DNA of 32,966 bases, taken from assembly GCA_015660855.1 (NCBI GenBank), contig JACSDG010000013.1:1-32966 (forward strand), written 5' to 3'. The DNA is from Magnetococcales bacterium. Lineage in GTDB: Bacteria > Pseudomonadota > Magnetococcia > Magnetococcales > UBA8363. The notes beneath the pieces are model-generated. The model made no database searches. It was not told the origin of the DNA and worked only from the letters and a program-made list of their open reading frames with translations. The number at the start of each line of letters is the position of its first letter. Within the stretch, counting starts at the first letter, position 1. Position numbers and translations under genes: made by a program. Positions 1,271 through 28,536 of this stretch are shown here, piece by piece.

Positions 1271-2194
1271 ATGGCACTGACTATTAATAACAGCATCTCT
1301 TCGATCAATGCCCGCAGGCAGCTCGAAAAGCATACGTTACAACTAAGCAAGACGTTTTCCAGGCTCTCCTCAGGGATGCGCATCAATACTTCTCAAGATG
1401 ATGCCGCAGGTATGGCCATTACCAACCGCATGGTGGCGCAAATTCGCGGTATGAACGTGGCGATTCGTAATGCCAACGACGGCATTTCGTTGGCGCAGGT
1501 TGCCGAAGGTGCCCTGGATGAAACCCAGAACGCTTTGCAAAGAATGCGGGAATTGGCCATTCAAGCGGCCAACTCCACGTATTCCGCTTCCGATCGGGCC
1601 AACCTGCACGAAGAATTCAAGCAAATGTTGGCCGAGATCAATCGTATCGCCTCGGATGCCGAGTTCAACAACGTCAAGCTGTTGGGCGGTGTGAAAATGT
1701 CGACGGATGGGGGATCCTATAAAGTCCAGCAGTTTGCGGGAAACTTTCATGTGGGTCCGGACGCTGGCCAAACCATTGCTGTCACTGTAGGTCGCGCCGG
1801 ACTTGAAGAGCTTGGCCTGAACAATTACAGCTTTACCACGGGTAATGCCTCAGCGACGGCCAAGATTGTGACGGCGACAGTCAGTGCCAAAGTTTGGGTT
1901 TCCACGGCGGCCAAAGCTAATTCTGCGTTGGGATTCATCGATAGTGCCCTGGATTCGGTTTCCGATATTCGTGCCTCCCTTGGCGCAGCCCAGAGCCGTT
2001 TTCAGACGGTGATCGCATCTCTCTCCAACGTGGTTGAGAACACCGATGCCGCCCGTTCGCGTATTCAGGACGCCGATATTGCCATGGAAACCGCGAATCT
2101 GACCAAATACACGATTTTGCAGCAGGCCGGGGTGGCCATATTGGCTCAGGCCAATCAACAACCGACCATCGCCTTGGCGTTGCTTGGCGCGTGA
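1271..2194 (+). CDS. fliC: Flagellin 1
   Basis: 307-residue filament subunit. The N-terminal D0/D1 domain starts MALTINNSISSINARRQLEKH and contains the typical SSGMRINTSQDDAAGMAI stretch; the C-terminal D1/D0 domain has SRIQDADIAMETANLTK and ends QANQQPTIALALLGA. The centre (about residues 145-220) is short, so D2/D3 surface domains are essentially absent. It is the first of three tandem paralogues of 303-307 residues. A GGAG ribosome-binding site lies upstream of the ATG and two sigma-28-like promoters lie further up. Subunits would be secreted through the flagellar export apparatus and polymerise into the filament. It is the only copy ending in GA rather than GR. Confidence 0.97.
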   Translation: MALTINNSISSINARRQLEKHTLQLSKTFSRLSSGMRINTSQDDAAGMAITNRMVAQIRGMNVAIRNANDGISLAQVAEGALDETQNALQRMRELAIQAANSTYSASDRANLHEEFKQMLAEINRIASDAEFNNVKLLGGVKMSTDGGSYKVQQFAGNFHVGPDAGQTIAVTVGRAGLEELGLNNYSFTTGNASATAKIVTATVSAKVWVSTAAKANSALGFIDSALDSVSDIRASLGAAQSRFQTVIASLSNVVENTDAARSRIQDADIAMETANLTKYTILQQAGVAILAQANQQPTIALALLGA

Positions 2195-2234
2195 CGGTCG
2201 TAAAACCTGATGAAATGATCGTTTTTTCCGGGTC

Positions 2235-2261
2235 GGGTTGGCCCGTTAAATTGAACAACCC
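2235..2261 (+). promoter_or_regulatory. Conserved stem-loop after flagellin 1
   Basis: GGGTTG (2235-2240), a 15-base loop and CAACCC (2256-2261), preceded by T-run-CCGGGTC. The same architecture with the same loop length follows each of the three flagellin genes. There is no U-run after the stem, so an mRNA-processing or stability element is more likely than a terminator. Confidence 0.5.
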
Positions 2262-2323
2262 AGTGTTTTCAAGGGATTGATAACATAGGAAATCGCGGTT
2301 CCGAAATTATAAGGAATATTTCA

Positions 2324-3235
2324 ATGGCTCTCACGATCAACAACAGCATTTCTTCCATCAATGCACGAAGAAATCTTGAAAAACATACCCTCCAACTGAG
2401 CAAAACTTTTTCCAGACTTTCTTCGGGGATGCGGATCAATACCTCGCAAGATGACGCCGCCGGCATGGCCATTACCAATCGTATGGTCGCTCAAATCCGG
2501 GGTATGAACGTTGCCATCCGCAATGCCAACGATGGTATCTCGATGTCTCAGGTTGCCGAGGGTGCTTTGGATGAAACCCAGAACGCTTTGCAAAGGATGC
2601 GGGAGTTGGCTATTCAAGCCTCCAACTCCACCTACTCCGCATCCGACCGGGCCAATTTGCACCAAGAATTCAAGCAAATGCTGGCCGAGGTCAACCGGAT
2701 CGCCTCGGATGCCGAGTTCAACAACGTCAAGCTTTTAGGTGGTTTAAGAACCTCATTGGGAGCTTCGTACAAGGTCACACAATTTGCTGGAACCTTTCAT
2801 GTCGGTCCCGACGCAGGGCAGACCATTGCCGTCACTGTAGGTCGTGCAGGTCTGGAAGAACTTGGCCTGTATAATTTTAGCTTTGCCAACGGGGCAGTTT
2901 CCACGACTTCGGTTAAGGCAGCCAGCGTCAAAGTATGGGTTTCTACGGCCGCCAAAGCCAATTCCGCTTTGGGGTTCATCGACAGTGCCCTGGATTCGGT
3001 CTCCGATATTCGTGCCTCTCTCGGCGCAGCCCAGAGCCGTTTTCATACGGTGATTGCATCTCTCTCCAACGTGGTTGAGAACACCGATGCCGCCCGTTCA
3101 CGCATTCAGGACGCTGACATTGCCATGGAAACGGCAAATTTGACAAAGTACACGATTTTGCAGCAGGCCGGGGTGGCCATATTGGCGCAGGCCAATCAGC
3201 AACCCACCATCGCTTTGGCCTTGCTTGGAAGATAA
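2324..3235 (+). CDS. fliC: Flagellin 2
   Basis: 303-residue flagellin with the same D0/D1 termini as its neighbours. It starts MALTINNSISSINARRNLEKH and ends QQPTIALALLGR. The central region (about residues 145-210) is the most divergent of the three, with a 4-residue shorter variable stretch (SFANGAVSTTSVKAASVKV). The ATG is preceded by AAGGAA. No convincing sigma-28 promoter is seen in the 129-base gap upstream, so expression probably depends on read-through from the promoters before flagellin 1 or on a promoter not recognised here. Mixed subunits may form one filament or different filaments of a bundle; the sequence does not decide this. Confidence 0.97.
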   Translation: MALTINNSISSINARRNLEKHTLQLSKTFSRLSSGMRINTSQDDAAGMAITNRMVAQIRGMNVAIRNANDGISMSQVAEGALDETQNALQRMRELAIQASNSTYSASDRANLHQEFKQMLAEVNRIASDAEFNNVKLLGGLRTSLGASYKVTQFAGTFHVGPDAGQTIAVTVGRAGLEELGLYNFSFANGAVSTTSVKAASVKVWVSTAAKANSALGFIDSALDSVSDIRASLGAAQSRFHTVIASLSNVVENTDAARSRIQDADIAMETANLTKYTILQQAGVAILAQANQQPTIALALLGR

Positions 3236-3277
3236 AGGGAACCACCCCTTTATAAGCTTGAATTTTTTTACCGGGTC

Positions 3278-3304
3278 GGGTTGGCTCGGCTAACGGAACA
3301 GCCC
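3278..3304 (+). promoter_or_regulatory. Conserved stem-loop after flagellin 2
   Basis: GGGTTG (3278-3283), a 15-base loop and CAGCCC (3299-3304), again preceded by a T-run and ACCGGGTC. One pair is a T-G wobble here, intermediate between the sequences of the first and third copies. Confidence 0.5.
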
Positions 3305-3365
3305 AAAAGTCACAAGGGATGGATGACACGGAGAATGTAATGCCGACCACCAAAGGAAAAGTAAA

Positions 3366-4289
3366 ATGGCTCTGACTATCAATAACAGTATTTCGTCTAT
3401 TAATGCTCGCCGGAATCTTGAGAAGCATACCCTCCAGTTGAGCAAAACCTTCTCCAGGCTCTCTTCGGGCATGCGAATCAACACCTCGCAAGATGACGCC
3501 GCCGGTATGGCCATAACCAACCGCATGGTGGCGCAGATTCGCGGTATGAACGTCGCCATTCGCAATGCCAACGATGGTATTTCTATGGCCCAGGTTGCCG
3601 AAGGTGCCCTGGATGAAACCCAGAATGCTTTGCAAAGAATGCGGGAATTGGCCATTCAAGCGTCCAACTCCACGTACTCCGCTTCCGACCGGGCCAACCT
3701 GCACGAAGAATTCAAGCAAATGTTGGCCGAAATCAATCGTATCGCCTCGGATGCTGAGTTCAACAACGTCAAGCTGTTGGGCGGTGTGAAGAAATCGACG
3801 GATGGGGGATCTTATAAAATCCAGCAGTTTGCGGGAACCTTTCATGTGGGTCCGGACGCTGGCCAAACCATTGCTGTCACTGTAGGTCGCGCCGGACTTG
3901 AAGAGCTTGGCCTGAACAATTACAGCTTTAACACGGGTGATGCCTCAGCGACGACCAAGATTGTGACGGCGACAGTCAGTGCCAAAGTTTGGGTTTCCAC
4001 GGCGGCCAAAGCCAATTCCGCGTTGGGATTCATCGATAGTGCCCTGGACTCGGTTTCCGATATTCGTTCTGCGTTGGGGGCGGCTCAGAGTCGTTTCCAG
4101 TCGGTGATTGCGTCTCTTTCTAACGTGGTTGAAAATACCGATGCGGCCCGTTCACGCATTCAGGACGCTGACATTGCCATGGAAACGGCCAATTTGACAA
4201 AGTACACCATTTTGCAACAGGCGGGGGTAGCGATATTGGCGCAGGCCAATCAGCAACCCACTATTGCTTTGGCATTGCTCGGAAGATAA
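3366..4289 (+). CDS. fliC: Flagellin 3
   Basis: 307-residue flagellin. Its central region is nearly identical in DNA to flagellin 1 (KIVTATVSAKVWVSTAAKANS), while its last 150 bases are closer to flagellin 2, so the gene is a mosaic of its neighbours. The ATG is preceded by AAAGGAAAAG. It lies 130 bases after flagellin 2 and ends the tandem array. A long stem-loop follows at 4328-4368 and a canonical intrinsic terminator at 4466-4498. Role as for the other two: filament subunit exported by the flagellar apparatus. Confidence 0.97.
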   Translation: MALTINNSISSINARRNLEKHTLQLSKTFSRLSSGMRINTSQDDAAGMAITNRMVAQIRGMNVAIRNANDGISMAQVAEGALDETQNALQRMRELAIQASNSTYSASDRANLHEEFKQMLAEINRIASDAEFNNVKLLGGVKKSTDGGSYKIQQFAGTFHVGPDAGQTIAVTVGRAGLEELGLNNYSFNTGDASATTKIVTATVSAKVWVSTAAKANSALGFIDSALDSVSDIRSALGAAQSRFQSVIASLSNVVENTDAARSRIQDADIAMETANLTKYTILQQAGVAILAQANQQPTIALALLGR

Positions 4290-17052: not shown

Positions 17053-17120
17053 TACCCACATCCTTATAAGATTGCGTAACATCAATATATTGCATGCAGG
17101 GCATGTATGAGTAAAGTGTT

Positions 17121-17178
17121 GTCAGTATATCCATTTTTCCATCGGCTACCAAAGAAAGGATATACTGTCCCCGGATTT
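17121..17178. repeat. REP-like palindrome A (left arm truncated)
   Basis: Left arm reduced to GTCAGTATATCC (17121-17132), then ATTTTTCCATCGGCTACCAAAGAAA, and the full right arm GGATATACTGTCCCCGG... (17158-17178). First member of the island palindrome family. Confidence 0.7.
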
Positions 17179-17307
17179 CGGATTTAAGTTCTCTTATTAT
17201 ACTGAATTTACGGGGCGAAAGTTGGAAAATGAGTTCCATTTGCGGAACAAACTGGGTATCCTGTGGTCAATAATGCCGCTATAGCAGGAGAAATCGCCAT
17301 GACGCAG
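17123..17307 (+). repeat. Direct repeat, copy 1: leader and start codon of a DUF3782-type gene
   Basis: About 185 bases that recur at 18357-18541 with few differences and one single-base indel. It includes palindrome A, a shared leader (AAAGTTGGAAAATGAG...), the AGGAG ribosome-binding site and ATGACGCAG at 17299-17307. After three codons the reading frame is lost to palindrome B, so this is a decapitated copy of the 5' end of the gene at 18532. Confidence 0.75.
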
Positions 17308-17309
17308 GA

Positions 17310-17376
17310 AAATCCGGGGACAGTATATCCATTTTTCCATCGGCCACCAAAAAAAGGATATACTGTCTCCGGATTT
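17310..17376. repeat. REP-like palindrome B
   Basis: Complete unit: 21-base left arm (17310-17330) and right arm (17356-17376) differing by one base from perfect complementarity, with the loop ATTTTTCCATCGGCCACC plus an A-run. It interrupts the duplicated DUF3782 start. Confidence 0.8.
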
Positions 17377-17457
17377 CCCCTTTGAGTTTGCCATTCGTGG
17401 CGTAGACGAAACTGGGCGTATGTTGGGGGGATGGATAAAACAGCAGGAGGAAAAACG

Positions 17458-17661
17458 ATGACCATGGACCTTGTCGAAGAACTTCAACTAAAGATTAGCA
17501 ACCTGCCCCCACTCCTTGCCAGAGAGGTACTGGATTTTATCAGCTACCTGGAACACACCCGTAGGCAAGATCAGGAACGAGATCCCTTAAAGTATGCGCA
17601 ACTGGTCTCCATGCGCAAGGTTTGGGACAATCCAACGGACGAGGCATGGAATGACATGTAA
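17458..17661 (+). CDS. DUF2281-type antitoxin
   Basis: 67 residues from ATG 17458, with a strong AGGAGG seven bases upstream. The sequence MDLVEELQLKISNLPPLLAREVLDFISYLEHTRR matches the small DUF2281 family, whose members pair a short helical N-terminal segment and LP.....EVLDFI with a charged tail and commonly act as antitoxins. The tail DNPTDEAWNDM would be the toxin-binding part. The stop codon overlaps the start of the PemK-like gene by 11 bases, typical of a co-translated toxin-antitoxin operon. The pair lies between two long direct repeats. Confidence 0.8.
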   Translation: MTMDLVEELQLKISNLPPLLAREVLDFISYLEHTRRQDQERDPLKYAQLVSMRKVWDNPTDEAWNDM

Positions 17662-18001
17662 ACCAGGCATACTGGTCGTGGTGCCATTCCCTTTCGCCGA
17701 CTTGTCCTTCAGAAAGAAACGCCCGGTGCTGGCTCTGACTTTCCCGGACAGGTACGGAGACTTTATTGGGTTGGCCATTACTTCCGTTCCCACGCAAGAA
17801 AACGCCATGCATCTTGAGCCATCTGACTTGATCATTGGTGCGTTGCCCCTGCCGAGTTGGATACGTCTGGATAAAGTTTATACTCTTGGGACCGAGTCCA
17901 TTACCCGCGAATTGGCAGAAGTTCGTCCCGATGTCCTGGTCCGCATCATTCGTAGCACATGCGCGATAGTTGGTCTTGCATCGGCTGTTACCCCGTTGTG
18001 A
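17651..18001 (+). CDS. PemK/MazF-family toxin (endoribonuclease)
   Basis: 116 residues from ATG 17651; a longer frame to 17594 would only read through the antitoxin gene. The N-terminal strand GILVVVPFPFADLSFRKKRPVLALT is the hallmark of PemK/MazF proteins (usually G-D-I-V...PF.F.D....K.RP.LVL). Then come FIGLAITSVPTQ and LPLPSWIRLDKVYTLGTESI, matching the later strands and the conserved LDK segment. MazF-like toxins cut mRNA at short motifs and are blocked by the co-expressed antitoxin. The 11-base overlap with the DUF2281 gene supports the pairing. No ribosome-binding site of its own is obvious, so it relies on coupling. Confidence 0.85.
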   Translation: MTCKPGILVVVPFPFADLSFRKKRPVLALTFPDRYGDFIGLAITSVPTQENAMHLEPSDLIIGALPLPSWIRLDKVYTLGTESITRELAEVRPDVLVRIIRSTCAIVGLASAVTPL

Positions 18002-18118
18002 AACGTACCGGGAATTTGTTTGATCGGATTGTCGTTTTTCCCAATCTCTGGCGAACAGTCCATAAGGCGTGGCGCGGCAAGAAGGATAAGGCCAGAATTG
18101 CCAATTTTTACTTTAACC

Positions 18119-18412
18119 AAATCCGGGGACAGTATATCTATTCTTCCATCTCGGACATGAAATCCGAACCAAATCCGGGGACAGTATATCTATTCTTCCA
18201 TCGCGGACATGAAATCCGAACCAAATCCGGGGACAGTATATCTATTCTTCCATCGCGGACATGAAATCCGGGGACAGTATATCCATTTTTCCATCGCGTG
18301 AAATTCGGGGAAATCCGGGGACAGTATATCCATTTTTCCATCGGGAAATCCGGGGACAGTATATCCATTTTTCCATCGGCTACCAAAGAAAGGATGTACT
18401 GTCCCCGGATTT
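18119..18412. repeat. REP-like array C: six left arms and one right arm
   Basis: The head CCGGGGACAGTATATC(C/T) starts at 18119, 18171, 18223, 18264, 18311 and 18346, each followed by AT(T/TC)TTCCATC. Spacing is 52, 52, 41, 47 and 35 bases. A single reverse-complement arm closes the array (18392-18412). The first three units share a TCTATTCTTCC variant and a GACATGAAATCCGAACC linker, so they look like a local tandem expansion. Confidence 0.85.
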
Positions 18413-18541
18413 CGGATTTAAGTTCTTTACTCTACCGGATTTACGGTACGAAAGTTGGAAAATGAGTTCCATTTGCGGAACAAACTGGGTATCCTGTGGT
18501 CTATAATGCCGCTATAGCAGGAGAAATCGCCATGACGCAGG
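18357..18541 (+). repeat. Direct repeat, copy 2: intact leader of the DUF3782-type gene
   Basis: Partner of 17123-17307. Here the leader, AGGAG and ATGACGCAG continue into a full gene. The two copies enclose the toxin-antitoxin pair. Confidence 0.75.
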
Positions 18542-19083
18542 CTGTAACCTTTGACGACGTATGGAAAATGTTCCAGGAAACCGACCGCAAATTTCAGGAA
18601 GTTTCCACTCAAATGAGGGAAACCGACCGCAAGATCAAGGAGGTCAGCCAGCAGGTTGGCAACCTGGGTAGCCGGTGGGGTGAGTTCGTCGAAGGCATCG
18701 TTGCTCCGGCCTGCGAAACACTGTTTGCCGAGCGGGGCATCCCCGTGCATCGTGTCTCGCCTCGGGTCAAGGCAAAGAGCCTGGACGGCAACCGCCGCAT
18801 GGAGATTGATCTGTTGGTAGACAACACCGACAGCGTTGTCCTGGTGGAAGTCAAGAGTCGCCTGACCGCCGAGGATGTCCGTGATCATCTGAAACGGGTG
18901 CGCGAGTTCAAGGAGTTTTACGAAGGTGAAGGTGGCGCACGGGTGATGGGTGCCGTGGCCGGCATCCTGATTGATAACGATGTAGATAAATTCGCCATGA
19001 ATGAAGGGCTGTTCGTCATCGTTCAGTCTGGCGACAGCGTCAAGCTGGCCAATGACGGAAAGTTTGTACCACGTACTTGGTGA
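18532..19083 (+). CDS. DUF3782-type PD-(D/E)XK nuclease-superfamily protein
   Basis: 183 residues from ATG 18532, which has AGGAG eight bases upstream; a GTG at 18496 is less likely. Residues 8-45 are heptad-like (MFQETDRKFQEVSTQMRETDRKI split over two turns) and suggest a coiled coil. Then come GNLGSRWGEFVEGIVAPACETLF and ERGI, typical of this family. The nuclease-like core shows MEIDLLVDN with Asp93 and VLVEVKS with Glu106 and Lys108, the D-x12-E-x-K arrangement of PD-(D/E)XK enzymes, followed by DVRDHLKRVREF. The family is widespread in mobile regions of filamentous and multicellular-like bacteria; its function is not established. The gene is bracketed by REP-like palindromes. Confidence 0.85.
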   Translation: MTQAVTFDDVWKMFQETDRKFQEVSTQMRETDRKIKEVSQQVGNLGSRWGEFVEGIVAPACETLFAERGIPVHRVSPRVKAKSLDGNRRMEIDLLVDNTDSVVLVEVKSRLTAEDVRDHLKRVREFKEFYEGEGGARVMGAVAGILIDNDVDKFAMNEGLFVIVQSGDSVKLANDGKFVPRTW

Positions 19084-19113
19084 GTTGATGAGCCTCTGCA
19101 AGGTTCTACTGAT

Positions 19114-19213
19114 AAATCCGGGGACAGTATATCCATTTTTCCATCAGCCACAAAAAAAAGGATATACTGTCCCCGGATTTCCCAATTAATTAGGATATAC
19201 TGTCCCCGGATTT
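19114..19213. repeat. REP-like palindrome D with an extra right arm
   Basis: Left arm 19114-19134, right arm 19160-19180 (perfect complement), then a second right arm at 19193-19213 preceded by CCCAATTAATTA. It starts 30 bases after the DUF3782-type stop codon. Confidence 0.85.
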
Positions 19214-19440
19214 CCCAATTAGATAGAGCTTTAACTTTTCAGGGATTTTCTAAAAAGTGCCAAATTTCGGCATCATTTATATAGCAATCCATTGAATTTA
19301 CAGGTAAATATTCATGCAGCAAAGCCAAAGGACACCGTGCTCCATTCGGCAGGTACTTCCAATGAGTAAGGTTGCTGTTTCGACCACCAAACAGTACAAT
19401 TATGCTGATCATTTCTTGGTGAGTTTGCTACAGGAGAAGC
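19214..19440. other. AT-rich upstream region of the 245-residue gene
   Basis: 227 bases without a gene. It should contain the promoter of the downstream gene, but no box stands out. Confidence 0.25.
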
Positions 19441-20458: not shown

Positions 20459-20617
20459 ATGGACAACATTACCGTACTTGGAATCGACTTGGCAAAGAGT
20501 GTCTTCCACCTTCATGGGGTGGATCAACAGGGCAAGGTGGTTTTAAAGAGACTGTTTGATAGGGAAAAGATGTTGTCGTTTTTTGCGAATCTGCCGCCTT
20601 GTCTGATCGGGTTGGAG
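20459..20617 (+). pseudogene. IS110-family transposase, N-terminal stump
   Basis: 53 residues remain: MDNITVLGIDLAKSVFHLHG then KVVLKRL and FFANLPPCLIGLE. This is the start of the DEDD-type IS110/IS1111 transposase, with Asp10 and Glu53 of the catalytic tetrad. A good AAGGAGG ribosome-binding site precedes the ATG. The normal continuation after GLE is lost: at 20618 the sequence switches to GGTAACC and the intergenic mosaic repeat R6. The rest of the RuvC-like domain and the serine-containing C-terminal domain are absent, so the gene cannot function. The non-coding 20319-20458 could be the left end of the former element. Confidence 0.85.
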
Positions 20618-20720
20618 GGTAACCATTCAGTTTCCCCCCTTTTTTTTAGGATGAAACTATTGTGGGGGTCCGAGGGGAGAACCTCCCCCCGGACCCCCCG
20701 CAAAAATTTTTGCCGAACAA
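20618..20720 (+). repeat. Intergenic mosaic repeat, copy R6
   Basis: Starts GGTAACCATTCAG, followed by a pyrimidine-rich block, GATGAAAC, TATTGTGGGGGTCC and a C/G-rich palindrome ending CCCCCCGCAAAAATTTTTGC. It is the same module order as the reverse copy R1. Its left boundary coincides with the break in the IS110 gene; its right end nearly touches the octaheme cytochrome stop. Confidence 0.65.
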
Positions 20721-20751
20721 GGATTTCCCCTCCCCGTATCCACCCCTTCAA

Positions 20752-22914
20752 CTATTTGGCCTGTTTTTCCAGTTCGGGAAGATGACGCAGTTCCTTGGCC
20801 CGTTCCGGAGTGTAGCCAAGTTTGTCAAAATCCAAAATTCCCTTTTCAGCATGGCATTCACGGCAGGTGCGGCCATCGCGTTTGATGCCATGGTTGATCA
20901 TAAGAGTCGCCATCTGGCGCATCCAATGTTTTTCCACCTTTTGCAGTTCATCGTTTGCAGTCAAGGGATACTCCGCCGACCAGGCATCCACACCAAAATA
21001 AGTCATGAAGGCATCCATCATGTACATTTTGAACGGGGCTTCATACATGCGCCGAACAATGGGATGTTTGATGGCGGTCTTGACCGATTGAATGGGGTCA
21101 CCGGTCTCATAGTAACTCGCATAATCGAACGGCAAAATCATGGCCCCGAACAACCCCTGGTTGCCCATGTCCTCATACATGCGGGCATTGAACAGTTTGA
21201 ACGGCGTAATCCGACTGATCCCCTTTTTCATCAAGGGCCGTATCTTCTCCTCAACCCAAAGCCGCCGTTTTTCAACCTGCTCCGGTGTAAAATGACTCAG
21301 AGGATTGGCCGCTTCACGGACATATTGATCCACATCAATATCGGGATAGGTGAGTTTTAACTTTTCGGCGGCACTACGAATAGCCGCCAAAACCTCGGGG
21401 TCGTCGATTTTAACCAGTTGGTTCATCAACGGGTTGTAACGATTGTCGCCAGTGGGATTGTCTCCCAGGGCATTGGCCAGGAAGGTGCCGTTGCCATTGA
21501 ACCACAGATAAGTCATCCCCTTGCCGGGTTTGCCCGATTGATAAACATCAACGTAGGTATATACACCTTCCTCCTTGTTCCAGACAGGATAGACCCAATC
21601 ACGCAAAACCACGTTGTAATCAGCCAACTCTTTGATGTGACAAGTCTCACACGCCAAACGGGCAATGTGACCATTGAGGATGGCGCGATGGGTGACATCG
21701 CGAATATGGGGAGACGCGGTATGACATCCTTCACAGGAAACCGGCTTGTTGGGCAAATCGTTGGCAACCAAATCCACCCCATGCAAACCACGGGGAATCT
21801 TATGCCCTTCGGGGACATGGCAATCCAGACAATTCATCCCGGCAGCCGAATGGACATCGGTGGACGGGCTGAAAGGTGTGGCCCGTTTGGCACCATCATG
21901 GGAAAACCGCTCGTTGATGTGACCCCGATTTTTAGAGGCCCGATTACCCTCAAACGCATCACCACCCAGATTGTGCTGGTGACAGTTCAAACAACTGTCC
22001 ACTTTGGGCGTCCCCACCGTCATCGCCGCACGCAACGACCGATCCTGATCCCAACGGCGACCATGGCTGTCGGCAATGACAACCCTTTGGTTCATATCGT
22101 AAACATCGGCGTGGCAAATCAGGCAGTCAATCCCCTCCTTGGCACTGGCGGGTACGTCCCCAATGGGCATCATTTTTTCGGTGGCGGGGTGATAGTTGCC
22201 GCCAATATGGCATTGGCCACATCCCTCGGAACGGGTGACAACCTCCCCATGGGCCGATTCCGGTTTGCTTTTGACCAGCTCCGCCCATCCGGTCCAGGAA
22301 AAAGAACCGGGAATGCCACAGGCACGGTCAATCTTGCCCATGGGTATGTTCAACAGTGAATTTTCGGCGTTGACCTCGCGACCATCAAAGCCAAAGGTGG
22401 AAAATCCCTTGGAATTTTTTTGGAAACGAAAATGGACCGTATCCACCACATCTTCCAGGGTGTTCACCTTCACGAATTCTCCCTTGCCATTGGCTGCATG
22501 CATGTCGGCATGACAAATCAGGCAGGTGGATGGCCCATCGTAGCGGGTAATGCCAGCCCGTTTAAAATAACCAATGTGGGGATAGGGGCTGTCGTCGCGG
22601 ACCGATTTCAACTCCATGACCCGCTCACGCCGCAGCCGCTCGATAAAGGAATTCCCCTCATCGGGAATTTTTTCCCTGGCCTTCCTGTCACGGTACGGCA
22701 AGGTCAATTCATCAGAGATCGCTTTGATTTCACTAGCTTTTAATTCTTTTGAGCTTTCATAGGTCAGGGTTGCGTTGACCACTCCGGTGTATCGTTCAAA
22801 AAACATCGGATACAACCATGTCTTCCCCACCCAGACCATCAGTCCGATCATGGCAAGAGAAATCAGGAAGGTTCTTGGGCCTGTTCTTTTTTTTGTTGTG
22901 TTAACGGCGTTCAT
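20752..22914 (-). CDS. Octaheme c-type cytochrome, OTR-like with C-terminal extension
   Basis: 720 residues from ATG 22914 (AAGGAG upstream). One N-terminal hydrophobic segment (residues 15-36) serves as anchor or signal. Eight CxxCH sites: Cys131, 232, 264, 308, 362, 394, 422 and 684. The first seven, with CLICHADMH, DTVHFRF, CGQCHIGG, CLNCHQHNLGGDA, CLDCHVPEGHKI and CETCHI, follow the spacing I recall for the octaheme tetrathionate reductase (OTR) family. The eighth heme sits alone near the end, after about 260 heme-free residues that include TM-less, Trp/Tyr-rich sequence. Expected periplasmic; substrate unknown (sulfur or nitrogen oxyanions are known for OTR in vitro). The start overlaps the cytochrome b stop by 14 bases, so the genes are coupled. 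Confidence 0.85.
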   Translation of the reverse strand: MNAVNTTKKRTGPRTFLISLAMIGLMVWVGKTWLYPMFFERYTGVVNATLTYESSKELKASEIKAISDELTLPYRDRKAREKIPDEGNSFIERLRRERVMELKSVRDDSPYPHIGYFKRAGITRYDGPSTCLICHADMHAANGKGEFVKVNTLEDVVDTVHFRFQKNSKGFSTFGFDGREVNAENSLLNIPMGKIDRACGIPGSFSWTGWAELVKSKPESAHGEVVTRSEGCGQCHIGGNYHPATEKMMPIGDVPASAKEGIDCLICHADVYDMNQRVVIADSHGRRWDQDRSLRAAMTVGTPKVDSCLNCHQHNLGGDAFEGNRASKNRGHINERFSHDGAKRATPFSPSTDVHSAAGMNCLDCHVPEGHKIPRGLHGVDLVANDLPNKPVSCEGCHTASPHIRDVTHRAILNGHIARLACETCHIKELADYNVVLRDWVYPVWNKEEGVYTYVDVYQSGKPGKGMTYLWFNGNGTFLANALGDNPTGDNRYNPLMNQLVKIDDPEVLAAIRSAAEKLKLTYPDIDVDQYVREAANPLSHFTPEQVEKRRLWVEEKIRPLMKKGISRITPFKLFNARMYEDMGNQGLFGAMILPFDYASYYETGDPIQSVKTAIKHPIVRRMYEAPFKMYMMDAFMTYFGVDAWSAEYPLTANDELQKVEKHWMRQMATLMINHGIKRDGRTCRECHAEKGILDFDKLGYTPERAKELRHLPELEKQAK

Positions 22915-23566
22915 GGTCGTTCTCCTTGGTGGTGCTGATTTCTTCCCAACCTGTAAGCATTTTTTCAATTTGACTGGTCATGGTTTTTCCAACCGTGACC
23001 AGATACACATGGCCGACGAAAAAAACAGCCAGGGCAACGCCAACCAAATAGTGCAGCACCGCCGCTGGCCACAAACCATCCATTCCAAAAATCTGCTCCG
23101 GTGCCCATTCGGGCACCCAAAGCATAAACCCGGTAACAATGATCAGCGGCACAACCAAATACATGATGGTTAGGTAGGTCATCTGTTGCAAAGGATTGAA
23201 CTTTTGCTCCCAGGTCGGCGGAAAAGGATGCGATAACCCTGCAAAAATACCCCGTGCATAAAAATCGGCCTGTTTCATGAGGCGTTGGCTAAGATTTTTC
23301 ATGACAGGCCGGTAATGTCGCACGTTGCCGCTGATTCCATTGGCTAAAACAAACACAAGAAACTCAAAGCTTAAAAACAAACCGCAAAGATTATGCAACA
23401 CCCTCGCCGTGGCAAACGGGATCAACGGGGCGTTGGGGTTGGCAAAATGCAGACTGATGCCACTGATCAACAGCAGGATGAACAGGGCGGCGTGACTCCA
23501 ATGCCAGATGCGCAACCACAAAGGGTAGAGCAGCACCTTCTTTTTAATGACGCAGTCAGGATTCAT
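22901..23566 (-). CDS. Membrane cytochrome b (thiosulfate-reductase PhsC-like)
   Basis: 221 residues from ATG 23566, with AAGGAGG upstream; the longer frame to 23659 lies inside the previous gene. An integral membrane diheme cytochrome b. LYPLWLRIWHWSHAALFILLLISG gives the first helix with the H-W-x-x-H pattern, followed by VLHNLCGLFL, FNPLQQMTYLTIMYLVVPLIIVTGFML and VLHYLVGVALAVFFVGHVYLV with paired His. This arrangement is that of COG4117-type quinol-oxidising subunits. It would pass electrons between the quinone pool and the periplasmic cytochromes encoded on both sides. It overlaps the heptaheme gene by 11 bases and the octaheme gene by 14. Confidence 0.88.
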   Translation of the reverse strand: MNPDCVIKKKVLLYPLWLRIWHWSHAALFILLLISGISLHFANPNAPLIPFATARVLHNLCGLFLSFEFLVFVLANGISGNVRHYRPVMKNLSQRLMKQADFYARGIFAGLSHPFPPTWEQKFNPLQQMTYLTIMYLVVPLIIVTGFMLWVPEWAPEQIFGMDGLWPAAVLHYLVGVALAVFFVGHVYLVTVGKTMTSQIEKMLTGWEEISTTKENDHERR

Positions 23567-24563
23567 GGCTTTGCCTCCTTCGCCCCGCAATAAAACGTCC
23601 CAAACCGTGGAACAATACACCGACCAGTGCCCCGCCAACCCCCAGAATGCCCAGGGCATCCAGCAAAGGATGCCTGGTCATGCCGATGACATAATAGTCG
23701 CTCAATACCACCCCATTGATGAATCCGGCCCGATGTTCACTTTCATGCAAACGGTATTTGTACAGTTTGGTCAAAAGAATGGAGTCGCGACTGTGACAGG
23801 CCACACAGTTGCGTTCAGCCCTTTCCGCCGGTTCAATGGCATGAATCACCGACCCGGGTCTGGGGGTGTGGCAATCCAGACATCGAACCGCACCAAGGTG
23901 CAGGGAAGCTTTGGGGATGATTCGGTGTTTTTCCACCTCCGTCATCGTTTGTTGATGACAGCGCAAACAAACTCCATTATCACGCTGCACCACATCCGCT
24001 TCCGGTGCCCTCTGGTCTTCAAGACGGCTTTCGTGGGGGTTGTGACAGGAAAAACAATCAAATCCTGCAACCTTTTCTTGCACATGGACACTTTTCTTAA
24101 ATTGGGCCGTAATCCCCACCAGACGCATGCGTTGAATCAATTTGTCCCCAGTGTGACAATCCCCGCAGCTGTGATGATCGGTAACCCCTTCGGGTTGATG
24201 GGGAAGCCCCGCAAAATTTCCCTTGTGGCAGGTCATGCAGGTTTGCCTGCCATGATCCGAAAGGGAAAATTTTTCTGCATCCACAGAAAAATCCAAATGT
24301 TTGCCAGACATCGGATCGATATAACTCAATGTGGACATGCCATGGCAGCGCAGGCACTTGGCATTTTCATCGGCAACCGCTTTGATGTCCGTATTGGCGT
24401 CAAGGGAGACCGGAGCCAAGGCAGACAGGGCCATGACCATGATTGAGACGATGCACCCATGGCGAAAATGCAATACCCGCCGTCTGGCCCATGGCCAGGC
24501 GTTACGATGGGGTATCGGCGTCGTTGGCCGGGAGGTCAATACCTTCAACGCATCGGCTCTCAT
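23556..24563 (-). CDS. Membrane-anchored heptaheme c-type cytochrome
   Basis: 335 residues from ATG 24563, which has GGGAG six bases upstream; a TTG at 24584 would add seven. After a basic, hydrophobic N-terminal signal (CIVSIMVMALSALAPVSLDA) there are seven CxxCH sites: CLRCH, CMTCH, CGDCH, CFSCH, CLRCH, CLDCH and CVACH. The C-terminus has a membrane helix (ALGILGVGGALVGVLFHGLGRF) with a positive tail, so the heme domain faces the periplasm. It is the first gene of the three-gene operon and lies 11 bases into the cytochrome b gene. A role as electron carrier next to cytochrome b is likely. The pairing recalls the heptaheme/cytochrome b pair CbcBA of Geobacter, by arrangement only. Confidence 0.9.
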   Translation of the reverse strand: MRADALKVLTSRPTTPIPHRNAWPWARRRVLHFRHGCIVSIMVMALSALAPVSLDANTDIKAVADENAKCLRCHGMSTLSYIDPMSGKHLDFSVDAEKFSLSDHGRQTCMTCHKGNFAGLPHQPEGVTDHHSCGDCHTGDKLIQRMRLVGITAQFKKSVHVQEKVAGFDCFSCHNPHESRLEDQRAPEADVVQRDNGVCLRCHQQTMTEVEKHRIIPKASLHLGAVRCLDCHTPRPGSVIHAIEPAERAERNCVACHSRDSILLTKLYKYRLHESEHRAGFINGVVLSDYYVIGMTRHPLLDALGILGVGGALVGVLFHGLGRFIAGRRRQSHES

Positions 24564-24639: not shown

Positions 24640-24654
24640 GCATAGGGCGTGCCA
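24640..24654 (-). promoter_or_regulatory. Sigma-54 (-24/-12) promoter of the cytochrome operon
   Basis: On the minus strand TGGCACGCCCTATGC: -24 box TGGCACG perfect (with the preferred C before it), correct spacing, and -12 box ATGC with one mismatch to TTGC. It lies 77 bases before the heptaheme start codon. The divergent neighbour encodes a sigma-54 activator with an intact GAFTGA loop. Confidence 0.75.
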
Positions 24655-24938: not shown

Positions 24939-26633
24939 ATGAACAAAGCACCCGAAAATATATTATGCGTCGATGACGATCCCGGCATTTTGTCCTTGTT
25001 TTCGCTTGTCCTCAGAGAAGCGGGATATGCGGTGGAAAAGGCCGAATCCATGACCATCGCCAGCGAACTGCTGTCACGAAGCTCCTTTGACTTGGTGGTT
25101 TCCGACATCATGCTCGGAGACGCTACGGGTCTGGATCTGGTCAGAAGAATCCGGCAAACCGATGGGACGGCCTACGTGATCCTGGTGACGGGCCATCCAA
25201 CCCTGGAGACGGCCCAGGAAGCGTTGCAACAGGGTGTTTTTGACTATATCCCCAAACCCGTCTCCCCAGGCACCTTACGTGAGCGGGTACGCCGTGCCCT
25301 GGAACACAAAAGGTTGCGGGATGAACGCAACGCCATTCAGCAAAATTTGCAGGCCATATTTCGCAGTGTCCAGGAAGCGATCATCTCGGTGGACGCAAAC
25401 TTTAGCATACGCCAAATCAACGATGCCGCCCAACGTGTCTGTGGTCTGTCCTCAGAGAGGATTGGCCAATCTTTTTTGGAGATCGTTCACTGCGAACCGT
25501 TACGCGATCTGGTCAAACGGGTATTCCACGAGCGCAGGCCGGTAGAAAGGGCGGAAATGACGTGTCAAAACGCCCAGGGACGCCAACAGGTGATTCACGT
25601 CTCCGTGTCGCCGCTGCTGGATGATGGCGGACTGTTTACAGGGGCCGTGGTGGTCATTCTTGATTTTACCCGCATGGCTCTGCTGGAGCAAAGCCGGCGT
25701 GAACGCAGTCGTTTTCATGGCATGATGGGCCAAAGTGCCGTGATGCGCCAGATTTTCAGCCTCATTGAAGATTTGGCGGTTGTGGAGACGACGGTGCTCA
25801 TCACCGGTGAAAGTGGTACGGGCAAGGAATTGGTAGCCGAGGCCCTGCATTTTCAGGGGGCGCGGGGCAAGGGGCCTCTGGTGAAAGTCAATTGCGCCGG
25901 ATTGACCGAAACCTTGTTGGAAAGCGAACTTTTCGGTCACGTCAAAGGGGCCTTTACCGGGGCGTTCAGAGACAAAATGGGGCGTTTTCAATTGGCCGAC
26001 AAGGGAACCCTTTTCCTGGATGAGATCGGCGATATCAGTGCCAACATGCAAACTCGATTGTTGCGGGTGCTCCAGGAAAAGACCATCGAAAAGGTCGGCG
26101 ATGCCCATCCCATCCAAGTGGATGTGCGCATCATCGCTGCCACCAACCGGCATTTGTTGGACAAAGTTTCCGCAGGCCTGTTTCGTGAGGATCTTTATTA
26201 TCGCCTGAACGTCGTGGAAATCCATTTGCCGCCACTTCGGGAACGGGCAGACGACATTGGACTCCTGATCGACCAGTTTATTCGCAAGTTTGGCGTTAAA
26301 TTCAATAAGGCCATCGATTCGGTGACCGAAGAAGTGATGCAGATTCTCCAACAGTACTCTTGGCCCGGCAATGTGCGGGAACTGGAACATGTCATAGAAC
26401 GGGCCTTTGTGGTTTGTCGTGAACATGTCATCGGTTTGGAGCACCTACCGAAAGCCATGGTGGCGGGTAAGATAACGTTAACTCAACCGTTTTTTGCCGA
26501 AGGCGAATCCGAACGCGATACGATTCTCAAGGTATTGGAACAGGCACGCTACAATAAGGGCAAAGCGGCCAAACTCCTGGGAATCAGTCGCAGTACCCTG
26601 TACCGTAAACTTGAAAGTTTAAAAATAATCTAA
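24939..26633 (+). CDS. Sigma-54-dependent response regulator (receiver-PAS-AAA-Fis)
   Basis: 564 residues, AGGAG upstream of the ATG. Receiver, residues 6-120: acidic triplet Asp12-14, phosphoacceptor Asp56 (VVSDIML), Thr84, Lys106 (PKP). PAS domain about 135-245 (FRSVQEAIISVDANFSIRQIN...). AAA+ domain: Walker A GESGTGKE at 290-297, GAFTGA at 337-342, Walker B GTLFLDEIGD, arginine-finger region REDLYYRLNVVEIHLPPLRER. The C-terminal Fis-type helix-turn-helix reads KGKAAKLLGISRSTLYRKL. All parts needed to drive sigma-54 transcription are intact. It is transcribed away from the cytochrome operon, whose promoter has a -24/-12 signature, so it is the probable activator. The cognate kinase is not in the window. 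Confidence 0.95.
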   Translation: MNKAPENILCVDDDPGILSLFSLVLREAGYAVEKAESMTIASELLSRSSFDLVVSDIMLGDATGLDLVRRIRQTDGTAYVILVTGHPTLETAQEALQQGVFDYIPKPVSPGTLRERVRRALEHKRLRDERNAIQQNLQAIFRSVQEAIISVDANFSIRQINDAAQRVCGLSSERIGQSFLEIVHCEPLRDLVKRVFHERRPVERAEMTCQNAQGRQQVIHVSVSPLLDDGGLFTGAVVVILDFTRMALLEQSRRERSRFHGMMGQSAVMRQIFSLIEDLAVVETTVLITGESGTGKELVAEALHFQGARGKGPLVKVNCAGLTETLLESELFGHVKGAFTGAFRDKMGRFQLADKGTLFLDEIGDISANMQTRLLRVLQEKTIEKVGDAHPIQVDVRIIAATNRHLLDKVSAGLFREDLYYRLNVVEIHLPPLRERADDIGLLIDQFIRKFGVKFNKAIDSVTEEVMQILQQYSWPGNVRELEHVIERAFVVCREHVIGLEHLPKAMVAGKITLTQPFFAEGESERDTILKVLEQARYNKGKAAKLLGISRSTLYRKLESLKII

Positions 26634-26702: not shown

Positions 26703-27395
26703 ATGCAGATGCAGTATTTTCTCAGAACAATGAGCAGGCGCGGCAAATGGTTATTGCTGGCAGGTGTTGTGGCTCCCACCATGGCCGCGTGTGGTCACAC
26801 CATTGATCCAACCATGTCGGAATTGCCGGTTTACAACATGCCAGCGGCGGTCGTTGTCAAAACGCCTCCGGCGCAGATGAATGGTGGTGCCTTTGCTTAC
26901 CCTGGGATGATGCCCGCCTCGATGCCCATGGCCCCTGTTGCAGGCGGGGCGGTTATGGGTACCAATGCGGTTCCCGTGGGGGATGGCCAGTTTGCCATGG
27001 TACGCCCCGATGGGGTTACGGTGATTCAGCAGTCGCCCATCACCGTGCAACAGCCTTCCGTTACCATTCCCCAGCCCCCCATATGGGTGGGGAATCCGCC
27101 GATGCCGATTCCGTCGCCGCCGCTGGTGATCAACCAGCCAGGCTTTTCTTCCTTCAACCAGGCGGAGATCCTGGTGCATCCATCCAGGGTCGAGTTTGTG
27201 GAAACCGTGGTGATGCCAACTCAGGTCGTGGCAACCCAGCAGGCGTATGTACCGCCACCGGCACCGGCACCGGCTCCGGCTCCCGCACCCGCGCCACCGC
27301 CCGTGGTTCAACCCAAAGCACCACCACCCGCACCGCCATCCTTGCCCAAGGTTGAGCCAACCATTCCCAGGGAGGATCCCCTCCCGCCCAAATAA
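26703..27395 (+). CDS. Exported Pro-rich protein, possible lipoprotein
   Basis: 230 residues; ATG 26709 is an equally good start with GAGGAG better spaced. The N-terminus RRGKWLLLAGVVAPTMAAC is a signal peptide ending in a weak lipobox, with Cys near residue 30. The mature part is low complexity: Met/Pro/Ala-rich to residue 110, a VTVIQQSPITVQQPSVTIPQPP stretch, then VHPSRVEFVETVVMPTQVV and a (PA)n tract followed by a Pro/Lys-rich tail ending LPPK. No enzyme domain is recognised. It begins 69 bases after the regulator gene and is the first of four small exported proteins spaced 35-86 bases apart. It may span or link envelope layers. Confidence 0.75.
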   Translation: MQMQYFLRTMSRRGKWLLLAGVVAPTMAACGHTIDPTMSELPVYNMPAAVVVKTPPAQMNGGAFAYPGMMPASMPMAPVAGGAVMGTNAVPVGDGQFAMVRPDGVTVIQQSPITVQQPSVTIPQPPIWVGNPPMPIPSPPLVINQPGFSSFNQAEILVHPSRVEFVETVVMPTQVVATQQAYVPPPAPAPAPAPAPAPPPVVQPKAPPPAPPSLPKVEPTIPREDPLPPK

Positions 27396-27436
27396 AAAGG
27401 AATGGTCAAGGAAACCGGAACGTGGAGAAATAAAAC

Positions 27437-27796
27437 ATGTGCAGAAAAAACAAAATGATCTTGACGGTTTTCTCAGGTTTATTGCTGGCCGCCGGTCACG
27501 CCGGGGCGGGGCAATTGATGGTGCCGCACCAGGACCAGGACGAGGTGATCGTCCACACCTATCCCGAAAAGTTCGCCCACCCTGTGGATTATTGGTGGCA
27601 CCTGAATCCATCGCAGGCCGGGGCGTGGGACTATTTTTCACCGGTACAGGATTCCTATCAACCTGTTGTCGTGGAGCAGGGAGCTCCCGGCACCAGGCCT
27701 CTTGAGGTGATGGGTGTTGGCCTCCGTAAACTGGAAGCCAAATACGCTTCGCCCCAGGTCACAGGATCGCCGCTCTATCACGGACGAGGGAAATGA
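27437..27796 (+). CDS. Small exported protein of unknown function
   Basis: 119 residues. A clear Sec signal peptide, MILTVFSGLLLAAGHAGAG, precedes a mature chain of about 95 residues with an aromatic-rich patch (HPVDYWWHLNPSQAGAWDYFSPV) and a Gly/Leu-containing tail (PLEVMGVGLRKLEAKYASPQ). No known domain is recognised. The ribosome-binding site is GGAG before AAATAAAAC. It lies 41 bases after the Pro-rich protein gene and 35 bases before the Gln/Met-rich one, so the genes are very likely cotranscribed. Confidence 0.75.
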   Translation: MCRKNKMILTVFSGLLLAAGHAGAGQLMVPHQDQDEVIVHTYPEKFAHPVDYWWHLNPSQAGAWDYFSPVQDSYQPVVVEQGAPGTRPLEVMGVGLRKLEAKYASPQVTGSPLYHGRGK

Positions 27797-27831
27797 ACGT
27801 TGTGCTTACCAGCTATAGAGAAGGAATGAAT

Positions 27832-28536
27832 ATGATCAAGTCTCCAGTAAAGAATCGCACATCGGTATCCCTTCTGGCTTGTGCTGCCCTGATGACGGTC
27901 AGCCTCGTTGCGCCGCAAAAAGCCCATGCCGATATCGCTACCGCCACGGTTTTGGGTGGTCTGGCACTGTTTACCACATTGATGCACGCTTCCGAACCGG
28001 CAGCACCACCGGTAGCCATCGCCTATCCCCAGGCATCGGTACCGCCGCCGGTCATGATGGCACAACCCATGGCCATGCCCATGCCGGTTTTGTCTCCCAT
28101 TCATCAGCCCATGGTCTATTCTTCCGTATCGCCTACAGTGGCTCCGGCACCCATGGTTCAACAAATTCAGCCGATTTCCTATCAGGTTTCAGCCCCGTCG
28201 GCACCGATGATGAACGTGCCCAGCTATCAGAGCGGACCTTCGCCGGTCTATCAACAGCAATCGTATCAGCAGCCGTATCCCACAGGAGGCATGCCCGTCG
28301 CTTATCAGCAGCAACAGCAGGGCTATCCCGTGATGCAGCAGGCCGCCATGATGCCCCAACAGCAGGGAGTGTCCTATCAGACGATGCCCCAGCAAGGAAT
28401 GTCCTATCAGGCGATGCCGCAGCAGGGAATGATGCCGCAGCAGCAGACCGCCATGATGCAGCCACAAGGGATGATGCCTCAGGGTGGCTATGGTGCCAGC
28501 ATGCCTTCGACCAATTTTGCTTATGCTCGACAGTAA
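27832..28536 (+). CDS. Exported Gln/Pro/Met-rich repeat protein
   Basis: 234 residues from ATG 27832 (GAAGGA six bases upstream); 27826 is an in-frame alternative. The signal peptide SVSLLACAALMTVSLVAPQKAHA is followed by a short hydrophobic segment (DIATATVLGGLALFTTLMHA). A long low-complexity region then ends with imperfect repeats around SYQ-x-MPQQGM at about residues 180-220. Composition is dominated by Gln, Pro, Met, Tyr and Ser, like many intrinsically disordered surface or matrix proteins. No enzymatic motif is seen. Third gene of the exported cluster; a strong stem-loop follows its stop codon. Confidence 0.75.
   Translation: MIKSPVKNRTSVSLLACAALMTVSLVAPQKAHADIATATVLGGLALFTTLMHASEPAAPPVAIAYPQASVPPPVMMAQPMAMPMPVLSPIHQPMVYSSVSPTVAPAPMVQQIQPISYQVSAPSAPMMNVPSYQSGPSPVYQQQSYQQPYPTGGMPVAYQQQQQGYPVMQQAAMMPQQQGVSYQTMPQQGMSYQAMPQQGMMPQQQTAMMQPQGMMPQGGYGASMPSTNFAYARQ

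Follow-up and report, generated by a model that had tools for sequence, protein, structure and literature searches.

The subject of this analysis is a 32,966-nt stretch of a Magnetococcales bacterium contig (hereafter the window), which carries on its minus strand three overlapping genes that encode a heptaheme c-type cytochrome, a cytochrome b and an octaheme c-type cytochrome of the octaheme tetrathionate reductase (OTR) superfamily. Positions refer to the whole window, and octaheme residues are numbered along the 720-amino-acid protein (Table 1). The genes overlap by exactly 11 bp (heptaheme/cytochrome b) and 14 bp (cytochrome b/octaheme), and the seven plus eight CxxCH motifs of the operon cannot be a product of chance; those of the octaheme protein lie at residues 131, 232, 264, 308, 362, 394, 422 and 684. 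An earlier note on this DNA had described these overlaps and motif counts, a membrane-anchored heptaheme cytochrome and a quinol-type cytochrome b partner, and all of this is borne out: coordinates and motifs are exact, the heptaheme protein ends in a membrane helix, and the cytochrome b matches PF01292 and possesses the four heme-b histidines of FdnI.

Table 1. Features of the operon and its upstream region
Feature	Position	Strand	Remarks
Heptaheme c-type cytochrome	23556..24563	-	335 aa, 7 CxxCH; N-terminal signal region, C-terminal membrane helix at residues ~299-334
Cytochrome b (Ni_hydr_CYTB/FdnI/PhsC type)	22901..23566	-	221 aa; H22, H58, H172 and H186 for two b hemes
Octaheme c-type cytochrome, OTR superfamily	20752..22914	-	720 aa, 8 CxxCH
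Octaheme N-terminal membrane anchor helix, residues 13-43	22786..22878	-	AlphaFold2 model; outside the OTR profile alignment
Cys199, lone non-heme Cys, equivalent of OTR Cys64	22318..22320	-	76/76 of family, 20/20 OTRs
Heme 2 CxxCH (C232), equivalent of OTR catalytic heme	22207..22221	-	Alignment to OTR
Replacement loop, residues 313-344 (.HN.GGD...H.G.KR)	21883..21978	-	In place of the OTR loop with D150, K153, H154
Helical insert between hemes 7 and 8, residues 485-559	21238..21462	-	Profile-profile gap; helices 506-522, 528-536, 544-562
Heme 8 CxxCH (C684), equivalent of OTR heme 8	20851..20865	-	Alignments to OTR
Sigma-54-type -24/-12 element, TGGCACG-N4-ATGC	24640..24654	-	Upstream of the heptaheme gene; 10/12 consensus positions
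Sigma-54 activator (response regulator, PAS, AAA+, Fis-type helix-turn-helix)	24939..26633	+	Divergent from the operon; presumed operon regulator

Partner subunits and distribution of the operon

The cytochrome b is recognized by PF01292 (E = 3.6e-27, 95.7 bits against a cut-off of 30.1) and is homologous to FdnI and HyaC, its four histidines aligning with the heme-b histidines of FdnI in 1kqf_C. It also approaches the thiosulfate reductase cytochrome b PhsC (PRK15006), scoring 180 bits within a range of 180-194 against a cut-off of 204, but the operon lacks the molybdoenzyme partner PhsA. Among 42 relatives of the heptaheme protein, six invariant histidines and one nearly invariant histidine outside the CxxCH motifs are available for the seven hemes. 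A fold search of this subunit against the PDB returned nothing significant, and profile comparison gave weak matches to NrfB-like cytochromes and to 28pb, labelled 'Cytochrome c'.

Relatives were located at 61 named loci from Magnetococcales, Chromatiaceae, Thiomargarita, Chlorobiota, Melioribacteraceae, Calditrichota, Poribacteria, Leptospiraceae and Gemmatimonadota. The order heptaheme-cytochrome b-octaheme is recovered by tblastn in 53 of them; among the other eight some end at a contig edge and one (L013) has no partner upstream, and in divergent Leptospiraceae and Gemmatimonadota loci the cytochrome b was recovered with a hidden Markov model (in two frames at L058). The conservation of gene order in relatives, on which the earlier note had staked its proposal, therefore extends over several phyla. 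The first junction overlaps by at least 4 bp in most named loci and the second likewise in many, and translational coupling is typical among relatives of the trio. A further 20 Magnetococcia loci, fetched separately, comprise 17 full trios (one with a natural fusion of the cytochrome b and octaheme open reading frames (ORFs)), one cut by a contig end and two without the cytochrome b gene. Of the 48 Magnetococcia genomes, 39 match a profile of the octaheme family, and among the 27 high-quality ones 24 do so. A few of the 39 (G006, G014, G137) match through a true OTR only, which leaves about 36 with a member of the family proper. Among 96 Chromatiaceae genomes sampled, about 30, counted from high-scoring rows, have a full-length or clearly partial member. 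Beyond the trio no other gene recurs widely alongside in the neighbourhood comparison of these loci.

True OTRs are arranged differently. A cytochrome b gene lies downstream in 16 of 20, so that OTR precedes cytochrome b whereas the trio has cytochrome b before octaheme, and no separate heptaheme gene of the trio's family adjoins them. Two bona fide OTRs occur in the host genome as well, and behind one of them comes a separate cytochrome b. A literature search for a description of the heptaheme-cytochrome b-octaheme trio found none among the papers it covered. The reported induction by sulfide of 'a cytochrome b561 and octaheme cytochrome' in A. vinosum and C. okenii (PMC6374484) was not used for the trio, because C. 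okenii also has a true OTR beside a cytochrome b (contig C14); contig order compared with locus-tag numbers places the reported pair nearer to this OTR than to the octaheme family member on contig C36. Three cytochromes without an assigned function, one with 7 and two with 8 hemes, are listed in the pyrite transcriptome of A. vinosum (PMC11267869), and its main text gives no tie to the trio.

The octaheme subunit as a relative of OTR

The best NCBIfam match of the octaheme protein is the OTR model TIGR04315, but the score is 78 bits where the cut-off is 375; the match spans residues 226-443 (244-461 in the longer submitted ORF), and relatives of the protein score 65-90 bits. The protein is not a member of the curated OTR family by this score; the OTR match anticipated by the earlier note is the best one, yet falls short in score. 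More sensitive comparisons extend the relationship. The phmmer search against the PDB finds Shewanella OTR (1SP3; E = 1.6e-11) with the C-terminal heme aligning separately to OTR heme 8, a 55-sequence profile gives the same alignment of this heme, and hhalign against 20 curated OTRs covers residues 129-704 from heme 1 through heme 8 (E = 4e-35). An AlphaFold2 model (predicted local distance difference test (pLDDT) 80.5, predicted template modelling (TM) score 0.82) has 1SP3 as its sole significant PDB match in Foldseek (E = 3.3e-10, probability 1.00, 566 columns), with a modest TM score of 0.43 by target. Phmmer, profile-profile alignment and AlphaFold2/Foldseek all point to 1SP3 and OTR, and the homology of the octaheme protein with OTR therefore spans the entire heme frame. 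The OTR-like heme spacing claimed in the earlier note is accordingly upheld, as all eight CxxCH motifs, heme 8 included, stand in OTR order and frame (hhalign, spacings). No family in Pfam, NCBIfam or the PDB covers the 720-residue protein as such, so no other well-known family of this length takes it in.

The earlier note had envisaged an extra C-terminal domain that carries the last heme, and this does not survive the comparison. Cys684 aligns to OTR heme 8, and OTR itself has about 180 heme-free residues before it, which rules out the roughly 260 heme-free residues before Cys684 as an addition; the supposed domain is a misreading of OTR's own last segment. The distance between the CxxCH motifs of hemes 7 and 8 is 169-190 residues in OTRs (n = 20, median 182) and 215-264 in the family (median 262), the heme 1-2 segment has a median of 100 residues in the family versus 50 in OTR, and the heme 4-5 loop measures 54 versus 42 residues. 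In the AlphaFold2 model and the profile alignment a helical region continues from the N-terminal anchor to about residue 125, and OTR has neither. The extra length is thus assigned, from alignment and model, to the anchor and helical region (residues 1-125) and to inserts within the OTR frame. In the phylogeny the octaheme family and the 20 OTRs are separated by a branch supported at 100/100, and the family is accordingly a distinct clade of the OTR superfamily. Within it 202 residues are conserved at 95% or more across phyla, and the ratio of nonsynonymous to synonymous substitution rates (dN/dS) is 0.06-0.08 in intact pairs; cross-phylum constraint together with such low ratios fits a specific active site.

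The clearest departure from OTR concerns the surroundings of heme 2. In OTR the catalytic heme 2 has a conserved Lys as a ligand (PMC11024163). The motif KHG[DE] in the heme 4-5 loop is present in 20/20 OTRs and in 0/76 intact members of the octaheme family, where the loop instead carries H314, D319, H339, K343 and R344, each invariant in 76/76. The conserved Lys of OTRs is K153 in the 1SP3 numbering of the phmmer alignment, which we take to be the residue of the published ligand, and Cys64 of OTR lies close to heme 2. The 20 OTRs share seven invariant histidines outside the CxxCH motifs plus the loop Lys, which would make eight distal ligands. Six of these seven histidines are kept in the octaheme family (H113, H161, H355, H371, H416, H675); H113 had been considered as a family-specific ligand and was dropped once 20 OTRs were aligned, being invariant in OTR too. 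As far as alignment can tell, K153 and H154 are replaced in the octaheme family by residues of the new loop, and heme 2, which presumably forms the active site, may be His-ligated, Lys343-ligated or open. By this loop, too, the protein falls outside OTR proper, and because the Lys153-His154 loop over the catalytic heme has been exchanged, it is unlikely that the substrate is just the one used by OTR. In sum, the protein shares with Shewanella oneidensis OTR eight colinear hemes, the Cys64 equivalent, six of seven distal histidines, the fold match and a cytochrome b neighbour, and differs in its low model score, the missing Lys-His motif, the N-terminal anchor and helical region, the longer heme 1-2 and 7-8 segments and its heptaheme neighbour.

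Two further offshoots of the superfamily provide comparisons. MmcA of Methanosarcina (TIGR04314) is an OTR relative in which heme 2 is absent (PMC11024163); it likewise has an altered heme 2 site, but the octaheme protein matches its model weakly (28-39 bits, cut-off 250), and MmcA lacks heme 2 and lies in an Rnf operon, whereas the octaheme family retains heme 2 and no Rnf genes were found among the window genes examined. A third OTR-like group of long proteins (~750-970 aa) occurs in Chromatiaceae (for example Chromatium okenii, L163 7909-10149), with nine CxxCH motifs, an extra N-terminal region that is PKD-like by eye, and the Lys kept in GAKRGD.

A natural deletion bears on the heme 2 site. 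In two closely related genomes (G129, G026) the octaheme protein lacks residues 174-241, and with them Cys199 and heme 2, and also lacks the new loop (L141, L142). The cytochrome b gene is gone beside this remnant, which the heptaheme gene still adjoins, and both genomes hold elsewhere a heptaheme-cytochrome b pair without octaheme (L144 7384-8936, L145 865-2417). Between the two genomes the remnant has a dN/dS of 0.46, whereas the heptaheme-cytochrome b pair gives 0.09 and 0.11; this pair is the fairer control, since the intact octahemes compared have diverged further from each other than the two remnants have. By these ratios the remnant is under relaxed constraint and the pair still constrained. 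The joint loss and the relaxed remnant fit heme 2, Cys199 and the new loop as one functional site, and the constrained stand-alone pair fits the heptaheme protein and cytochrome b as a separable quinone module.

Proposed function and alternative readings

Such a module resembles CbcBA of Geobacter sulfurreducens, which consists of a 7-heme cytochrome c with a C-terminal anchor and a diheme b partner and is accompanied by a sigma-54 activator. The likeness lies in function and make-up and extends to the stand-alone pair of the two relatives; the trio differs in joining the pair with an octaheme subunit in one operon. CbcBA of Geobacter is an inner-membrane quinol oxidoreductase that works near -0.2 V (PMC12307469). 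The trio combines an OTR-superfamily enzyme with a b/c quinone module.

With a probability of roughly 0.55, the operon would encode a membrane-bound, quinone-linked periplasmic oxidoreductase, most likely a terminal reductase; this reading and the alternatives below are not mutually exclusive, and their probabilities may add up to more or less than one. Electrons from menaquinol or ubiquinol would enter at the cytochrome b with its two b hemes, pass on to the membrane-anchored heptaheme cytochrome and from there to the anchored octaheme subunit, and end on a small substrate that binds at heme 2. The three proteins would presumably form a physical complex. The conserved gene order, the natural cytochrome b-octaheme fusion, the four heme-b histidines and the pairing of 16 of 20 true OTRs with such a cytochrome b count in favour of the quinone-linked reading. 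The dedicated respiratory reductase with 15 c-hemes and a b-type subunit proposed in the earlier note is sustained in its motif counts and b partner, and a reductase is plausible, although electrons may flow either way. Several points weigh against the reductase. FdnI-type cytochromes b also run from periplasm to quinone, which would allow the reverse direction; most lineages with the trio oxidise sulfide, and a role in oxidising a donor could suit them; the confidence of the AlphaFold2 model is lowest around Cys199 (pLDDT below 50 at residues 195-209), so the active site lies outside what the model shows; and the two genomes with the remnant, as close relatives, represent one evolutionary event.

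The first two of these points favour a reversal of flow, in which the octaheme subunit would oxidise a periplasmic, probably sulfur, compound and electrons would enter the quinone pool through the heptaheme protein and cytochrome b. FdnI-type and HyaC cytochromes b, to which the present one is homologous, normally reduce quinone, and many carriers belong to the Chromatiaceae, Thiomargarita and Magnetococcales, mostly sulfide oxidisers. We regard this as doubtful, since Gemmatimonadota, Leptospiraceae, Melioribacteraceae and Calditrichota, which are not typical sulfide oxidisers, also carry the trio. Moreover, the trio has as its divergent neighbour in eight Chromatiaceae loci an operon for a Hyb-type [NiFe] hydrogenase (subunits named by Pfam in one locus and by clustering in the other seven), a potential source of quinol if the trio is a reductase. 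Those OTRs that have been characterised act as reductases in vitro (PMC6449678), and the CbcBA precedent oxidises quinol (PMC12307469).

It is unlikely that the protein is an ordinary OTR, a tetrathionate or nitrite reductase of unchanged activity in which the catalytic Lys has only moved to another place in the loop, as Lys343. The invariance of K343 in all intact members and the sharing of Cys199, D319 and the heme frame with OTR would accord with it, but the score of about one fifth of the family cut-off, the separate clade and the two bona fide OTRs of the host genome speak against it, as does the retention of GAKRGD even in the divergent third OTR-like group. Least probable is a non-catalytic octaheme protein that, in the manner of MmcA (PMC11024163), relays electrons received from the CbcBA-like pair to carriers in the periplasm or outer membrane, for which one can cite MmcA itself as a heme 2-less OTR relative, the loss of heme 2 in one lineage here and the working of CbcBA without an enzyme subunit, but against which stand the invariance of heme 2, Cys199 and the loop in 76/76 intact members, the relaxed selection where all three are gone and the lack of any further gene widely recurrent beside the trio.

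Regulation, surroundings and significance

The -24/-12 element upstream of the heptaheme gene keeps GG-N10-GC, and about 0.3% of mononucleotide shuffles are equally good. A comparable element is found at six other loci of close relatives, to which it is confined, none being found in Chromatiaceae, and the activator gene adjoins the operon in seven Magnetococcales loci. The element and the divergent activator together suggest sigma-54 control of the operon.

Beside operon and regulator the window contains a run of small exported Pro/Gln-rich proteins (26703-28536), which is kept in close relatives (L004-L007). Directly downstream of the octaheme gene is a truncated ORF (20459-20785) that resembles by eye the N-terminus of an IS110-type transposase and has no Pfam match. 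In other Magnetococcales (L009, L010, L012) the gene immediately upstream of the heptaheme gene encodes an ankyrin-repeat protein, and an ankyrin-like ORF (L002 2985-3590) precedes one of the host's own OTRs. Farther away are an array of ~32-52-nt repeats with AAATCCGGGGACAGTATATC, inverted copies included (17109-19248), between and around a PemK/MazF-like toxin gene (17594-18001; PF02452, 26.6 bits) and a DUF3782 gene, and tandem flagellin paralogues (1271-4289), of which Pfam confirms 1271-2194 and 3366-4289, with an ORF of similar size between them.

Tentatively, the trio may represent an unnamed class of octaheme respiratory enzyme that is nearly part of the core genome in Magnetococcia and common among purple sulfur bacteria. 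In this class an invariant His/His/Lys loop would have taken the place of the OTR Lys-His loop and brought a new ligand set for heme 2 and a new substrate, and a CbcBA-like pair would connect the enzyme to the quinone pool. With the octaheme family the OTR superfamily gains a third state, OTR having heme 2 and the Lys, MmcA neither, and the octaheme family heme 2 with a different loop. Given its presence in 39 of 48 Magnetococcia genomes (a few with OTR only) and in about a third of the sampled Chromatiaceae genomes, magnetotactic cocci and purple sulfur bacteria would have an uncharacterised respiratory enzyme as a regular part of their make-up, and the existence of cultured carriers such as Thiocapsa roseopersicina and Allochromatium palmeri makes knockout and assays feasible.

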